Source of the DNA: Actinomycetota bacterium
GTDB taxonomy: Bacteria; Actinomycetota; Actinomycetes; Mycobacteriales; Mycobacteriaceae
DNA: 64,000 nucleotides
Assembly: GCA_018268465.1 (NCBI GenBank)
Contig: JAFDWN010000008.1
Span: forward strand, 248,001 to 312,000
Reading direction: 5' to 3'
In this document: in pieces, positions 57,582-63,287 of the stretch
How the letters are laid out: every line of letters starts with the position of its first letter
How positions within the stretch are numbered: the first letter of the stretch is position 1
Notes under the pieces: generated by a model
The model's database searches: none
Seen by the model: the letters and a program-made list of their open reading frames with translations, nothing else
What the model was told of the DNA's origin: nothing
Translations under genes and position numbers: made by a program

Positions 57582-57703
57582 GCGGGAAGCCGGTGCCGTC
57601 GACCGGTCGTTTTCATCCCGGTTTCGCCACGCGAAGAATCACGGCGCAGCGACTGGGTACGGGCATCCGTCTGCGCAGATCGGCGCGCATACTGAAGGGC
57701 GAT

Positions 57704-59392
57704 ATGACTGGACCAGACTCCCAGCCCCGTAAAGCCATCATCCTCACCGTCGACGACGACCCCGCCGTGTCGCGCGCCGTCGCCCGGGACCTGCGCCGCC
57801 ACTACGGCGAGAGGTACCGGATCGTGCGGGCCGAGACGGGCTTCGACGCGCTGGACACCCTCAAGGAACTCAAACTGCGCGGCGACACGGTCGCGGTATT
57901 CGTCGCCGACTACCGGATGCCGCAGATGAGCGGTATCGAATTCCTCGAACAGGCCATGGACATCTTCCCGATGGCACGCCGGGTGCTGCTCACCGCCTAC
58001 GCCGACACCCACGCCGCGATCGACGCGATCAACGTCGTCGACCTCGACCACTACCTGCTCAAACCGTGGGATCCCCCGGAGGAGAAGCTCTACCCCGTCA
58101 TCGACGCGCTGCTGGAGGCCTGGCGGACCGACGGCGGGCATCCGATGCCCGACACCAAGATCGTCGGCCACCGCTGGAGCAGGCGGTCCTCGGAAGTCCG
58201 CGAATTCCTGGCCAGCAACCGGCTGTCCTACCACTGGATCTTCGCCGACGACGAGGAGGGCAAGCGGATGCTGGAGGCCGCCGGCCTCGACGCGCTGCGG
58301 CTGCCCGTCGTCATCACCGAGGACGGCGAACCGCTGGTCGATCCGTCCAACGCCGAACTCGCCGCGCGCCTGGGCCTGTCCACCGAACCGCGGCAGGACT
58401 TCTACGACCTGGCGGTGATCGGCGGCGGCCCCGGCGGGCTGGCGGCAGCCGTGTACGGCGCATCCGAGGGGCTCAAGACCGTGCTGATCGAAGCGGTCGC
58501 GACCGGCGGACAGGCCGGCCAGAGCTCCCGGATCGAGAACTACCTCGGCTTTCCCGACGGGGTTCGCGGTGATCAGCTGGCCGACCGCGCTCGCAGGCAG
58601 GCCGAAAAGTTCGAAGCCGACCTCATCACCGCACGCGAAGCCGTCGCGCTGGAACTGCACGGCAACGCCCGCACGATCCGGTTCGCCGACGGAGGGTCCA
58701 TCGACTGCCGCGCGGTGATCCTGGCGACCGGGGTGTCCTACCGCGAACTCGACGCCGACGGCTGTAACAGCCGAAACGGCGAGGACCGCAATCTGACGGG
58801 CCGCGGCGTCTACTACGGCGCGGCGACCTATGTCGCGTCGGAATGCGCCGACCAGCAGGTCTACGTCGTCGGTGGCGCGAACTCGGCAGGTCAGGCCGCG
58901 ATGAATCTGGCCAGGAAGGCCGCCAAGGTCACCCTCGTGGTACGCGGATCCGATCTGGCCGCGTCGATGTCCTACTACCTGATCCAGCAGATCAAGGCCA
59001 CCCCCAACATCGAGGTCATGACCAACACCGAGGTGTGTCACGCCCACGGCGAGAAGAGCCTGGAGAAGCTGGTCCTGGTCGACAACAAGAGCGGTGAGAC
59101 GACCGAGGTGGACTGCGCTCAGCTGTTCATCTTCATCGGCGCGCAGCCCCGCACCGACTGGTTGCCGCCGGAAATCGCGCGCGACGCCCGCGGGTTCGTC
59201 ATCTCCGGGCCCGACCTGGGCTCCGGCAGCGGCTGGCCGCTGGACCGCCCGCCCTACCACCTGGAAACAAGCGTGCCGGGTGTGTTTGTTGCAGGTGACG
59301 TACGAGCCGAATCGGCCAAACGCGTCGCCGCCGCCGTGGGCGAAGGGTCGATGGCCGTGATGTTCGTGCACCGCTATCTCGCCGAGGCGTAG
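57704..59392 (+). CDS. Response regulator fused to cysteine-less glutaredoxin-like and thioredoxin-reductase-like flavoprotein
   Basis: A 562-residue fusion. Residues 10-140 are a CheY-type receiver with Asp17-19, phosphoacceptor Asp69 (VADYRMP), Thr97 and Lys120 all present. Residues about 150-225 resemble a glutaredoxin-like fold with WSRRS in place of the usual CPxC. Residues 234-562 are a TrxR-like FAD/NAD(P) domain: IGGGPGGLAAAVYG, ATGGQAGQSSRIENYLGFP, VVGGANSAGQAA. The active site CxxC is replaced by YYGAAT (370-375), so it cannot act as a thiol reductase by the usual mechanism. Output is thus probably enzymatic or redox sensing. ATG at 57704; followed after 11 bp by a kinase gene. Confidence 0.85.
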   Translation: MTGPDSQPRKAIILTVDDDPAVSRAVARDLRRHYGERYRIVRAETGFDALDTLKELKLRGDTVAVFVADYRMPQMSGIEFLEQAMDIFPMARRVLLTAYADTHAAIDAINVVDLDHYLLKPWDPPEEKLYPVIDALLEAWRTDGGHPMPDTKIVGHRWSRRSSEVREFLASNRLSYHWIFADDEEGKRMLEAAGLDALRLPVVITEDGEPLVDPSNAELAARLGLSTEPRQDFYDLAVIGGGPGGLAAAVYGASEGLKTVLIEAVATGGQAGQSSRIENYLGFPDGVRGDQLADRARRQAEKFEADLITAREAVALELHGNARTIRFADGGSIDCRAVILATGVSYRELDADGCNSRNGEDRNLTGRGVYYGAATYVASECADQQVYVVGGANSAGQAAMNLARKAAKVTLVVRGSDLAASMSYYLIQQIKATPNIEVMTNTEVCHAHGEKSLEKLVLVDNKSGETTEVDCAQLFIFIGAQPRTDWLPPEIARDARGFVISGPDLGSGSGWPLDRPPYHLETSVPGVFVAGDVRAESAKRVAAAVGEGSMAVMFVHRYLAEA

Positions 59393-59403
59393 GAGGGAGC
59401 CCG

Positions 59404-60867
59404 ATGACCGATCCGGACTCGGACCTGCGCTGTGTACGCGACGAACTGCGCACCCTGTTCCTGTTCGAATCGCTCACCGACGCCCAGCTGGACCGGCTGT
59501 GCGCAGCGGGTGACATCGCGCGTTTCGAACCCGGTGTGCTGTTCGTCGAAGGAGCGCCAGCGACGTGCCTCTATGTGCTGACCGACGGCGAGGTGGCGCT
59601 GTCCAAGCGGTCCGGCGGGGTGGATATCGAGACGATCCGCAGCACGCAGCGCGGGGCGTACTTCGGGGCGTGGTCGGCGTTCCTCGACGGTGAGCAGACC
59701 TACGAGACTTCGGCGCGGGTGATCGCCCCGTCACGGATGTTCGTCCTCGACGCGGCCGGACTCGGCGACTTCATGCGTACCGAATTCCCGATGGCCTGCC
59801 ACTTCCTCGTCGGCCAGTCGCTCGGCCGGTTCAACCAGCACCGCATCGTCGGGCCGCATGACCGCCTCATGCAGCTCGGCCAGCTGACCGCGGGGCTCAC
59901 CCACGAGCTGAACAACCCCGCCGCCGCGGCGGTCCGTGCGACATCCGCGCTGCGCGGTCGCGTCGCGAGCCTGCGGCGCCGGCTGGGTTCGCTGGCGGAC
60001 GGCACGATGAACAACGCCACCATGCGCACCCTGGTGGCCATCGCCGACGAGGTGGCCGAGGCGGCGGCCAAAGCCCCCGACCTGAGCCCGCTGGAGAAGG
60101 CCGACCGCGAGGAGAGCGTCGGCGACTGGCTCGACGACCACGACGTCGGCGGGGCGTGGGAACTGGCCCCGACGTTCGTGGAGGCCGGGCTGGACATCGA
60201 CTGGCTGGAGCGGACCGCCGCCGCGCTCGAGGAGACGGACGGAGCCGCGTCACTCGTCGGCGCCGTGCAGTGGCTCAGCTGCACCATCGAATCCGAGTTG
60301 CTGTTCAACGAGATCACCCAGTCCACGTCACGGGTGGCCAACCTGGTGGGCCAGGCCGCGCATTACTCGCACCTCGACCGTGCGCCGTTCAACGTCGCCG
60401 ACGTGCACGAACTGCTGAAGAACACCGTGATGATGCAGTCGCACACCATCGGTTCGGACATCGCGGTGGTCGAGGACTTCGACGAGTCCATTCCGCCGAT
60501 CCTCTGTTACCCGGCCGAACTCGGCCAGGTGTGGACCAACCTGATACTCAACGCCGTGTCGGCCATGCGGTCCGGCGGCGGGACGACGCTGACGCTGCGT
60601 ACCTATCACCAGGGCGACGTCCTTCGCGTCGAAGTGTGCGACGACGGCCCGGGCGTCCCCGAGGAACTGCGGGAACGGATCTTCGACCCGTTCTTCACGA
60701 CGAAACCCATCGGTGAGGGCAGCGGGCTGGGCCTGGATTTCGCGTCGCGCATCGTGCACAAACACGGCGGGACGATGTGGGTGGAATCGGTGCCGGGTGA
60801 TACGCGTTTCATATCCGTGCTGCCGCTTCGCATCGAAGCCCGCTCCGACGCGGCCGAAGCGCGATGA
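59404..60867 (+). CDS. Histidine kinase with N-terminal cyclic-nucleotide-binding domain (1)
   Basis: A 487-residue cytoplasmic sensor kinase. Residues about 14-135 form a CRP-type cNMP-binding domain (FESLTDAQLDRLCAAGDIARFEP, LYVLTDGEVALSKRSGG). The H-box is GLTHELNNPAAA with His167. The ATPase domain has VWTNLILNAVSAM (N box), CDDGPGVPEELRERIFDPFFTT (G1) and GSGLGL (G2). Typical receiver partner is the adjacent response regulator fusion. The coding gap to the next paralogous kinase is 21 bp. Confidence 0.88.
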   Translation: MTDPDSDLRCVRDELRTLFLFESLTDAQLDRLCAAGDIARFEPGVLFVEGAPATCLYVLTDGEVALSKRSGGVDIETIRSTQRGAYFGAWSAFLDGEQTYETSARVIAPSRMFVLDAAGLGDFMRTEFPMACHFLVGQSLGRFNQHRIVGPHDRLMQLGQLTAGLTHELNNPAAAAVRATSALRGRVASLRRRLGSLADGTMNNATMRTLVAIADEVAEAAAKAPDLSPLEKADREESVGDWLDDHDVGGAWELAPTFVEAGLDIDWLERTAAALEETDGAASLVGAVQWLSCTIESELLFNEITQSTSRVANLVGQAAHYSHLDRAPFNVADVHELLKNTVMMQSHTIGSDIAVVEDFDESIPPILCYPAELGQVWTNLILNAVSAMRSGGGTTLTLRTYHQGDVLRVEVCDDGPGVPEELRERIFDPFFTTKPIGEGSGLGLDFASRIVHKHGGTMWVESVPGDTRFISVLPLRIEARSDAAEAR

Positions 60868-60888
60868 TCTCAGAGGGAGGGGACGACC

Positions 60889-62394
60889 ATGGGCGAGAAA
60901 TGTCTGCCCGGCGAACTACGGACGCTGTTCTTGTTCGAGGCGCTTTCTGACGCGCAGCTGGACACGCTGTGCGCCAACGGGCATATCGCGTCGTTCGAGC
61001 CGGGGCCGATCTGCACCGAGGGCGATCCCGCGACGTGCTTCTACGTGCTGCTCGACGGCGAACTGGTGATGTCCAAACGTTCCGGCGGCGTCGATATCGA
61101 GACCAACCGGACCTCGCAGCGCGGTGTGTACTGCGGGGCGTGGTCGGCCTACGTCCCCGGTGAGGAAAACGTCTACCAGGCCTCGGTCCGGGTGACCACA
61201 CCGTCGCGGTTCTTCGTCCTCGACGCGGGCGCGTTCGCGGCGTTCATGCAGCAGGAATTCCCGATGGCCGTCCATCTGCTCGAAGGCCATATGGTCGGCG
61301 GCCTGCGGCAGCGTCAGATTCTGGGGCAGCGGGAGAAACTGCTGGCGCTCGGCACGATCACGGCCGGGCTGACCCATCAGCTCAACAACCCCGCGGCCGC
61401 CATCTCCAGGGACGTCTCCGATCTGCGGGACAACGTCGGCAAGATGCGCCACAAGTTGGCGATGCTCGCCGACGGGGAGTTCACCCCCGAGGCGCTGCGG
61501 GTGTTGGTCAGCATCCAAGACGAGGTCGCCGAGCAGGTGGCCAAGGCGAAGATGCAAGAACTGTCGGCCCTGGAGACTTCCGATCGGGAGGACCAGATCG
61601 GCGAGTGGCTCGAGGATCACGACATCGCGTCGGGCTGGGATTACGCACCGACCTTCGTGGAGGCGGGGCTGGACACCGACTGGCTGGAGAAGGTGGAGGC
61701 GTCAATCGACGACGTCGACTGCTCGGCGACCCTGCGCGGCGCGATCGGCTGGCTGAAGTACACCATCGACACCGAGCTGTCGGTGAACCGTATCGCCGAG
61801 GCCAGCAAGCGCATCTCGGCGCTGCTCGCCGGCACCAAACAGTATTCGCAGATGGACCGGGCGCCGTATCAGTCCGCCGACGTCCACGAACTGCTGCACA
61901 GCACCGTGATGATGTTCGGGGAGAAGATCGGCAAGGACGGCCCCGTCAAACTGGTCAAGGAATGGGATAAGACCCTGCCCGAATTGCTTTGTTACCCGGG
62001 CGATCTCAACCAGGTTTGGACCAATCTTATCGACAACGCGATCCAGGCCATGGACTATCACGGCACGTTGACCGTCCGCACCGGGCGTGAGGGCGACGAT
62101 ATGGTGCGAGTCGAGATCTGCGACGACGGCCCGGGGATCCCCGAGGAGATCGTCGACCGCATCTTCACGCCGTTCTTCACCACCAAACCCTTCGGTGAGG
62201 GCACCGGTCTCGGGCTCGACCTGGCCTGGCGCATCGTGGTGGAGAAGCACCAGGGCAATCTGCGGGTCGAGTCGCAGCCCGGCGACACCCGGTTCATCGT
62301 GCTGCTGCCGCTGGAGGCGCCCGCCCCGACGGCGCTGACACCGGCGGAAATCAAACCCGCGGACGTTTCGCTCAGCACGAGTTCAACGGAATAG
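60889..62394 (+). CDS. Histidine kinase with N-terminal cyclic-nucleotide-binding domain (2)
   Basis: A 501-residue paralogue of the preceding kinase, colinear over its whole length. cNMP-binding domain at about 9-128 (FEALSDAQLDTLCANGHIASFEP, FYVLLDGELVMSKRSGG), H-box GLTHQLNNPAAA with His163, N box VWTNLIDNAIQAM, G1 CDDGPGIPEEIVDRIFTPFFTT, G2 GTGLGLDLAW. All kinase motifs are intact in both, so neither is obviously decayed. It is followed by F420-type oxidoreductase genes in the same direction. Confidence 0.88.
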   Translation: MGEKCLPGELRTLFLFEALSDAQLDTLCANGHIASFEPGPICTEGDPATCFYVLLDGELVMSKRSGGVDIETNRTSQRGVYCGAWSAYVPGEENVYQASVRVTTPSRFFVLDAGAFAAFMQQEFPMAVHLLEGHMVGGLRQRQILGQREKLLALGTITAGLTHQLNNPAAAISRDVSDLRDNVGKMRHKLAMLADGEFTPEALRVLVSIQDEVAEQVAKAKMQELSALETSDREDQIGEWLEDHDIASGWDYAPTFVEAGLDTDWLEKVEASIDDVDCSATLRGAIGWLKYTIDTELSVNRIAEASKRISALLAGTKQYSQMDRAPYQSADVHELLHSTVMMFGEKIGKDGPVKLVKEWDKTLPELLCYPGDLNQVWTNLIDNAIQAMDYHGTLTVRTGREGDDMVRVEICDDGPGIPEEIVDRIFTPFFTTKPFGEGTGLGLDLAWRIVVEKHQGNLRVESQPGDTRFIVLLPLEAPAPTALTPAEIKPADVSLSTSSTE

Positions 62395-62423: not shown

Positions 62424-63287
62424 GTGACGCAGCCTACGAGCTCCTCCCCCGACCCCTCGTCCACACCCGATCTGGGGCGCTACGGCGTCTTCGGGCGGGG
62501 CTTCAGCCCCGATCAGGCCCGCGAGATCGAAGCGCTGGGCTACGGCGCCATCTGGGTCGGCGGGTCGCCACCGGCAGAGTTGGAATGGGTCGAACCGATC
62601 CTGGAGAAGACCAGCACACTGTCCGTCGCGACCGGAATCGTGAACATCTGGACCGCCGCGGCAGGTCCGGTGGCCGAATCCTTCCACCGCATCGACGCGG
62701 CGTATCCGGGCCGTTTCCTGCTGGGAATCGGCGTCGGACATCCCGAAGCCCACGCGGCGTACCGCAAGCCGTTCGACGCGTTGTCGGAATACCTCGACGA
62801 GCTCGATGCACTGGGTGTCCCCCGGCAGCGCCGGGTCGTCGCCGCACTCGGGCCCAGGGTGCTCAGGCTGTCCGCCGAGCGCTCCGCCGGGGCGCACCCG
62901 TATCTGACGACGCCCGAACACACCGCGAGGGCACGGGAGCTGATCGGCCCGTCGGCGTTCCTGGCGCCCGAGCACAAGGTGGTGTTGACCACTCAGGCCG
63001 AGACCGCACGCACGGTGGGCCGTGCGGCGCTCGACATCTACCTCAACCTGCAGAACTACCTCAACAACTGGAAGCGGCTGGGCTTCACCGACGACGACGT
63101 GGCCAGGCCGGGCAGCGACAGGCTCGTCGACGCGGTGGTGGCGTACGGTACGGCGGAGGCCATTGCCGCCAGACTGGCCGAACATCTCGACGCCGGCGCC
63201 AATCACGTGCCCGTGCAGGTGCTGACCTCTGACGACGCCCTGCTTCCCGCACTCACCGAACTGGCCGGCCCGCTCGGGTTGCGCTGA
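62424..63287 (+). CDS. F420-dependent LLM-class oxidoreductase (TIGR03620-like)
   Basis: A 287-residue luciferase-like protein (LGRYGVFGRGFSPDQAREIEALGYGAIWVGGSPPA; VATGIVNIWTAAAGPVAESF; AYPGRFLLGIGVGHPEAH). GTG start 30 bp after the kinase gene. It is a close paralogue of the partial gene at 63401. Cofactor by family inference. Confidence 0.85.
   Translation: MTQPTSSSPDPSSTPDLGRYGVFGRGFSPDQAREIEALGYGAIWVGGSPPAELEWVEPILEKTSTLSVATGIVNIWTAAAGPVAESFHRIDAAYPGRFLLGIGVGHPEAHAAYRKPFDALSEYLDELDALGVPRQRRVVAALGPRVLRLSAERSAGAHPYLTTPEHTARARELIGPSAFLAPEHKVVLTTQAETARTVGRAALDIYLNLQNYLNNWKRLGFTDDDVARPGSDRLVDAVVAYGTAEAIAARLAEHLDAGANHVPVQVLTSDDALLPALTELAGPLGLR

Follow-up and report, generated by a model that had tools for sequence, protein, structure and literature searches.

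The joining of a receiver domain to a thioredoxin reductase (TrxR) in one polypeptide is already in print as a "Mycobacterium-like" combination, and the excerpts of that paper available to us discuss neither a kinase partner nor a missing dithiol (PMC5847659). A second form, which carries a cyclic nucleotide-binding (cNMP) domain, is known to NCBI annotation as "cyclic nucleotide-binding domain-containing thioredoxin-disulfide reductase", and one protein of this type, ATII-TrxR, is reported in the excerpts of its description to bind flavin adenine dinucleotide (FAD) and to use both NADH and NADPH (PMC6544261). Here we analyse a locus with the first architecture, a receiver-glutaredoxin-like-TrxR-like fusion followed by two histidine kinases (HK1 and HK2), in a 64,000-nucleotide window (the whole stretch of DNA studied: contig JAFDWN010000008.1 of assembly GCA_018268465.1, an Actinomycetota bacterium of the family Mycobacteriaceae, positions 248,001 to 312,000). 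We think, with moderate confidence, that it encodes a two-component system whose output is a dithiol-free NAD(P)H/FAD enzyme and whose kinase, in actinomycetes, is probably thiol-sensing. The architecture is thus already known, and the kinase-coupled mechanism is not; we found no account of a kinase-coupled system in the open-licence PMC literature (accounts elsewhere are possible).

How does the locus compare with better-known proteins? The top three Foldseek matches of the fusion model are AhpF structures (by E-value; the superposition is poor, with a root mean square deviation of about 20), and the model does have a thioredoxin fold ahead of a TrxR core. However, whereas AhpF presumably has two thioredoxin-fold domains, the fusion has a single one, with both dithiols erased and a receiver in front, and its score against the NCBIfam AhpF model TIGR03140 (157.4 bits) lies below the cut-off of 502.9. 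With TrxB it shares the FAD and NAD glycine motifs (its best NCBIfam match is TIGR01292, at 212.8 bits again below the cut-off, 343.45), but it lacks the CxxC of this low-molecular-weight TrxR, and such Cys-less proteins form a family of their own, set off from TrxB with branch support of 100/99. The middle domain resembles Rv3198.1 (labelled "putative glutaredoxin" in the PDB, and which we take to be mycoredoxin-1) in fold, in sequence profile and in the Pro at the cis-Pro position, but the catalytic Cys is missing, WCxxC having become WSxxS in most rows of the family. Finally, the kinases are like those of the ZraS/AtoS type in their HATPase_c domain and catalytic boxes (the best fold matches of the kinase model are ZraS and HK853), and unlike them in a cNMP-like sensor, in a stretch of about 90-100 residues inserted into the dimerisation and histidine phosphotransfer (DHp) region, and in the absence of any Pfam HisKA match in the two window kinases.

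57704..59392, + strand: receiver-glutaredoxin-like-TrxR-like fusion (P0001), 562 amino acids; intact open reading frame
59404..60867, + strand: histidine kinase HK1 (P0002), 487 amino acids, cNMP-like sensor; intact open reading frame, Pfam
60889..62394, + strand: histidine kinase HK2 (P0003), 501 amino acids, cNMP-like sensor; intact open reading frame, Pfam

A first-pass annotation of the window had described three adjacent genes, a fusion and two paralogous kinases, and this description stands: the three frames are intact and codirectional, with intergenic gaps of 11 and 21 bp. The closest named record to the fusion is that of Mycobacterium sp. ACS4331 (86% identity).

Kinase pairing and the receiver domain

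57734..58087, + strand: receiver domain, residues 11-128 (Pfam Response_reg, E=3.3e-13)
57908..57910, + strand: Asp69, predicted phosphoacceptor, kept in 43/43 kinase-linked and 0/7 unlinked relatives

Genes were called in the neighbourhoods of 60 relatives and in five stretches of the source genome. The 60 neighbourhoods were chosen from search matches, stronger first, and the adjacency count holds for that sample. Fifty of them contain a receiver-type fusion, and 43 of these fusions are at least 45% identical to that of the window. A kinase adjoins the fusion in all 43 cases (downstream in 40, upstream in one, and downstream but outside the gene calls in two), the Ktedonobacter copies that have no adjoining kinase being treated separately, whereas for none of the seven fusions below 45% identity does the stretch read include a kinase of the family (a weak and distant kinase match exists in one, L134; such designations are our own). 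At the level of whole genomes, with the fusion scored as present at E<=1e-200, both genes occur together in 35 of the 61 relatives' genomes, neither occurs in 26, and no genome has the fusion only or the kinase only. Among 296 genomes of the phylum (E<=1e-150) the corresponding figures are 35 with both, two with the fusion only, one with the kinase only and 258 with neither; possible broken partners, in the form of three short kinase-like pieces (two at the start of a contig), are present in the two genomes with the fusion only, and in G198, the one with the kinase only, pieces of a fusion lie on the contig of the kinase.

The pairing extends well beyond this sample. Plasmids of Streptomyces, Deinococcus, Nostoc, Caballeronia and Gloeothece carry pairs annotated as "FAD-dependent oxidoreductase" and "ATP-binding protein", and of seven such plasmid ATP-binding proteins six are 33-37% identical to HK2 over most of the length and the Streptomyces one 57%; in Ktedonobacter (Chloroflexota) one fusion and one kinase lie 14 bp apart. 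With representatives in Actinomycetota, Chloroflexota, Cyanobacteriota, Deinococcota and Pseudomonadota, the fusion and its kinase are a widespread bacterial signalling pair, and the early suggestion that the genes form a single two-component unit, with a flavoprotein of redox type as its output, is upheld by this obligate pairing, adjacency included (43/43).

The Pfam Response_reg match covers residues 13-125 of the fusion. As had been noted at first reading, the window protein has all the phosphorylation residues; these are D17, D18, D69, T97 and K120, and the set is complete in the 43 kinase-linked relatives as well. By contrast, the acceptor Asp is lost in each of the seven fusions without a kinase neighbour, none of which has the full set, and this despite the fact that the FAD/NAD residues tested are unchanged in all seven. 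Mean pairwise identity in the receiver is 72.8% among linked rows (window included) versus 35.4% among unlinked ones; in the TrxR part the values are 63.2% and 56.4%. Because the site is kept in every linked receiver and lost in all seven unlinked ones, Asp69 is very probably the target of the kinase, and the simplest reading of these alignments is phosphorylation of Asp69 by the kinase, with a flavoprotein that can also function where the kinase is absent. A Pfam scan of the fusion detected no DNA-binding domain.

The source genome has a single fusion of the receiver-TrxR type versus five kinases of the family, three of which have no fusion adjoining (G000:C22:190370, C43:20539 and C37:38316, our loci L034-L036; the C37 match has one in-frame TGA inside), and two or three kinases stand in tandem in 7 of the 60 neighbourhoods. 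On account of these fusion-less extra kinases and tandem arrays, several kinases probably serve one fusion, and it is in this wider form that the idea of two kinases feeding one regulator can be retained. Ktedonobacter (L158; G351:C6:881423 and C6:144341) offers the reverse pattern, with fusions outnumbering kinases; its L158 copy has grpE and dnaK close by. In Deinococcus aetherius and Nostoc (L164 and L165), a gene for a "low temperature requirement protein A" is found close downstream of the pair.

The flavoprotein and its erased dithiols

58154..58381, + strand: glutaredoxin/mycoredoxin-fold domain, residues 151-226, both cysteines replaced (profile match, model)
58175..58189, + strand: W158-S-R-R-S162 at the WCxxC site (sequence, profile, family alignment)
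58403..59383, + strand: TrxR-like FAD/NAD(P)H module, residues 234-560 (Pfam Pyr_redox_2, E=3.2e-32)
58811..58828, + strand: YYGAAT, residues 370-375, at the TrxR CxxC site (sequence, family alignment)
58844..58846, + strand: Cys381, lone conserved cysteine beyond the old CxxC site (family alignment)

Pfam assigns no family to the window segment 151-226 taken alone, and recognises Glutaredoxin in just 6 of the 17 members of its profile; the profile of these 17 sequences, though, matches the putative glutaredoxin Rv3198.1 (2lqo) with E=1.5e-8, and the AlphaFold2 (AF2) model of the fusion shows in this segment the order beta-alpha-beta-alpha-beta-beta-alpha. Structure prediction of the 140-230 segment, which had been proposed as a check, thus gives, together with the profile, a glutaredoxin fold. 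This AF2 model (7 sequences in the alignment, mean predicted local distance difference test (pLDDT) score of 68.7, low at the C-terminus) was used at fold level. At the WCxxC site Ser occupies the first Cys position in 37 and the second in 40 of the 43 linked rows, all of which have Pro at the cis-Pro position, and Cys is found at neither position in 59 family rows. This count of 59 leaves out the TrxB of the source genome and the product of gene 10 of L141 (G044), a short, 410-residue glutaredoxin-TrxR protein that has an intact CxxC and groups with TrxB outside the Cys-less family.

The Pyr_redox_2 match spans residues 234-548, and the FAD and NAD(P) glycine motifs are kept in 59/59 relatives. 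The CxxC, on the other hand, is absent from all 59 rows (which have YYGAA or similar), from the window protein and from nine plasmid relatives. Both thiol centres are therefore gone, as had been read from the window alone, and an active TrxR working through its CxxC is ruled out. Near the old site, Cys381 is kept in 38/43 linked, 1/7 unlinked and 6/9 non-receiver relatives, and is lost in the Deinococcus plasmid copy. In the region of HRRxxxR, which we take to be the NADPH motif of TrxB, the first Arg (R414) is present in 59/59 rows, and the Arg positions 415 and 419 are mostly replaced. Replacement of the second and third Arg fits the use of NADH as well as NADPH by ATII-TrxR, as its authors report it.

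Does the flavoprotein work as an enzyme at all? It could instead be a sensor or binding module, in which NAD(P)H or redox state, bound by the TrxR-like part, would tune the readiness of the receiver to take up phosphate or its choice of binding partner, and the kinase would have other targets. We regard this as possible but rather doubtful: the loss of both dithiols speaks for it, as do the three further family kinases with no adjoining fusion, which leave the kinases in excess over the fusion, but the unchanged FAD/NAD residues of the seven dead-receiver fusions fit a module with an activity of its own, and a relative of the cNMP type is reported, in the excerpts of its description, to be active with NAD(P)H (PMC6544261).

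We think it improbable that the fusion is still a disulfide or thioredoxin reductase, acting through Cys381 or through cysteines of a partner instead of the CxxC. Such a role would agree with the presence of Cys381 in 38/43 linked rows, with the occurrence of a zinc-finger partner gene in 8/60 neighbourhoods and with the activity on thioredoxin and on 5,5'-dithiobis-(2-nitrobenzoic acid) (DTNB) that excerpts of the literature ascribe to ATII-TrxR (PMC6544261). It is hard to reconcile with the absence of CxxC in 59/59 rows, or with the lack of Cys381 in 6/7 unlinked rows, in 3/9 non-receiver rows and in the Deinococcus plasmid copy. Besides, the source genome encodes a separate TrxB homologue (36% identity, CxxC intact), followed by a 110-residue gene of the thioredoxin cluster, so that the fusion is not the sole TrxR homologue of the cell. 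A relative of the fusion on a C. metallidurans megaplasmid (L169) has no CxxC; it may differ from the record used by the ATII-TrxR authors, and the redox-cysteine assignment in the excerpts of their paper deserves a second look in its light (PMC6544261).

The kinase sensor and a possible mechanism

60889..61263, + strand: HK2 cNMP-like domain, residues 1-125, with Cys5, Cys28 and Cys50 and without the usual Glu and Arg (alignment)
61375..61377, + strand: HK2 His163, predicted phosphorylation site, in LTHQLNNP (family-aligned H-box)
61474..61773, + strand: helical insertion in the HK2 DHp region, about residues 196-295 (alignment, model helices)

In both kinases Pfam finds cNMP_binding (40.1 and 35.8 bits, for a cut-off of 27.5) and HATPase_c above cut-off, and the H, N, G1, F and G2 boxes are present in both and in the alignment of their relatives. 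The DHp insertion, of 88-104 residues, is found in 56 of 58 aligned kinase rows, and appears as helices of moderate confidence in an AF2 model (6 sequences in the alignment, pLDDT 66.2) that was used at fold level. The family counts that follow refer to 61 kinases, and leave out two kinase pieces of L098 and the L131 kinase, which has a receiver-like N-terminus.

The first-pass annotation had also envisaged gating by cyclic nucleotides, and here the evidence goes the other way. At the Glu and Arg sites of its phosphate-binding cassette HK2 has Ala84 and Tyr96; the Glu-Arg pair is kept in only 2/61 family kinases, versus 2/2 control cNMP proteins of the same genome, and the change of Glu to Ala and Arg to Tyr is found in 28/28 kinases with a cysteine triad (see below), HK1 and HK2 included. 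Since most of these "cNMP" domains are without the Glu and Arg that cyclic-nucleotide binders have, gating by cAMP is unlikely, and we consider control of the system by cyclic nucleotides very improbable, for all that the Pfam matches are above cut-off in both kinases and two family members retain the pair. Less credible still is the view that the genes are neighbours by chance or that the locus is decaying, since the variation of the outer flanking genes between lineages is outweighed by the pairs in other phyla and by the open frames and conserved motifs, and since the survey of gene neighbourhoods suggested at the outset rules out chance adjacency (43/43 kinase neighbours, and 35/0/0/26 in co-occurrence).

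The cysteines are a better lead than the cyclic nucleotide, though for part of the family only. Positions aligned with Cys5, Cys28 and Cys50 of HK2 are cysteines at all three sites in 28 of the 61 kinases (HK1, whose three cysteines align with the HK2 triad, among them), at two in 5 and at one in 6. The triad, with a further Cys82 in 12/28 triad kinases, was considered with respect to an FNR-like iron-sulfur sensor of the CRP fold.

M. smegmatis probably has the orthologous pair, MSMEG_1516 (fusion) and MSMEG_1515 (kinase), judged by neighbouring tags, size and annotation and not by sequence. According to excerpts of the papers concerned, MSMEG_1515, a "two-component sensor histidine kinase", goes from 13.1 to 48.5% oxidation of its Cys5 upon NaOCl treatment in the wild type, and is 39.2% oxidised in the unstressed mshC mutant and 58.3% after NaOCl (PMC5430705); this Cys5 corresponds to the first residue of the kinase triad described here. 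Its neighbour MSMEG_1516, a "thioredoxin disulfide reductase" detected as a band near 60 kDa and 36% identical to Rv3913 (PMC7474061), is mentioned in similar excerpts as a member of the ClpC1 interactome (PMC10433963), as under-represented upon VapC overexpression (PMC10745673), and as co-precipitating with gp145 of phage Wildcat, which is toxic when expressed.

The mechanism that we favour would run as follows. The kinases would autophosphorylate on the His of the H-box and hand the phosphoryl group on to Asp69 in the fusion, a transfer suggested by the obligate pairing and by the disappearance of Asp69 from fusions without a kinase neighbour; one fusion could receive from several kinases. 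Phosphorylation might then move the cysteine-free glutaredoxin domain against the TrxR-like core, and thereby govern how fast electrons from NAD(P)H reach the FAD and leave it again, on their way to an acceptor that needs no CxxC (possibly O2, a quinone, a metal or a partner protein). The output would be enzymatic, not DNA-binding. The input would not be cAMP; in the actinomycete lineage the conservation of the cysteines and the published in vivo oxidation measurement point to the thiol redox state, presumably read by cysteines in a cNMP fold stripped of its ligand residues. We would go further only tentatively, towards a closed redox loop in which kinases reading the cytosolic state of mycothiol or other thiols, through cysteines of a repurposed cNMP fold, phosphorylate an AhpF-like flavoenzyme that has lost its redox cysteines and has a dead mycoredoxin domain as regulatory hinge, such that Asp phosphorylation, and not transcription, might switch NAD(P)H flow to a new acceptor.

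Several observations weigh against this mechanism, and should be kept in mind. The seven unlinked rows all fall within one ten-row clade (support 98/91), so that the loss of Asp amounts to one or a few evolutionary events. The L158 copy of Ktedonobacter (47% identical) has retained Asp69 in a kinase-free locus, with Ala in the place of T97, and this organism has three receiver-type fusions for one detected family kinase, which adjoins a copy other than L158. None of the three cysteines is present in 22/61 kinases, the triad being lineage-limited, and the first 80 residues of six kinases, found in four plasmid records from outside the actinobacteria, contain no Cys. The orthology of MSMEG_1515/1516 is judged from descriptions, and ATII-TrxR is reported, in the excerpts of its description, to reduce thioredoxin and DTNB (PMC6544261).

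If the mechanism is correct, this would be a two-component system of unusual output, namely a flavin oxidoreductase controlled directly through Asp phosphorylation. The cysteines of the kinases make a thiol-stress input testable. The labels now in use convey little of this: databases call the fusions FAD-dependent oxidoreductase or thioredoxin-disulfide reductase and the kinases "ATP-binding protein", and the M. smegmatis papers, in the excerpts at hand, speak of the inferred orthologue as a thioredoxin reductase, yet the relatives examined here are without the defining dithiol. As the pair is present in five phyla, assays of phosphotransfer and of NADH oxidation would give a first function to a large family that has none assigned.

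Upstream element, flanking genes and the cNMP form

57687..57693, + strand: -10-like element GCATACT, 10 nt 5' of the ATG; conserved in the genus, putative promoter function

The motif GCATA[AC]T is found shortly 5' of the fusion start in 15/15 sequences of the genus (the window and 14 relatives), and this proximity supports the ATG at 57704 as the start. Its distance to the next ATG is 8 nt in twelve sequences, 7 in one and 10 in the window; in one other sequence the motif lies only 2 nt from the first ATG. The position of the element suggests that the fusion transcript may be leaderless or nearly so. SigH- and SigB-type motif patterns gave no match upstream of the fusion among the same 15 sequences. 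Downstream of the kinases (62424-63287 and the next gene in the window), paralogous genes of about 285 codons (cluster c2) occur in the genus, in numbers of one to three; we take their products to resemble LLM-class (F420-type) oxidoreductases.

In the sister clade (support 100/99) a cNMP domain replaces the receiver in the 5/5 proteins scanned, and this cNMP-glutaredoxin-like-TrxR-like form stands beside dnaK/grpE/dnaJ/clpB in 5/60 neighbourhoods (L136-L139 and L145). The annotated order in Streptomyces angustmyceticus (L170, 5212-7692) is dnaK-grpE-dnaJ-cbpM-clpB-trxA-UBP zinc finger-fusion. A UBP-type zinc-finger protein of about 90-120 residues is encoded near the receiver form as well as near the cNMP form (L157, 13131-13481; L163, 8119-8472), its gene being the second after the fusion in 8/60 neighbourhoods and also in Streptomyces fungicidicus; the L157 copy matches Pfam zf-UBP, and the flavoprotein module may have this small protein as a partner.

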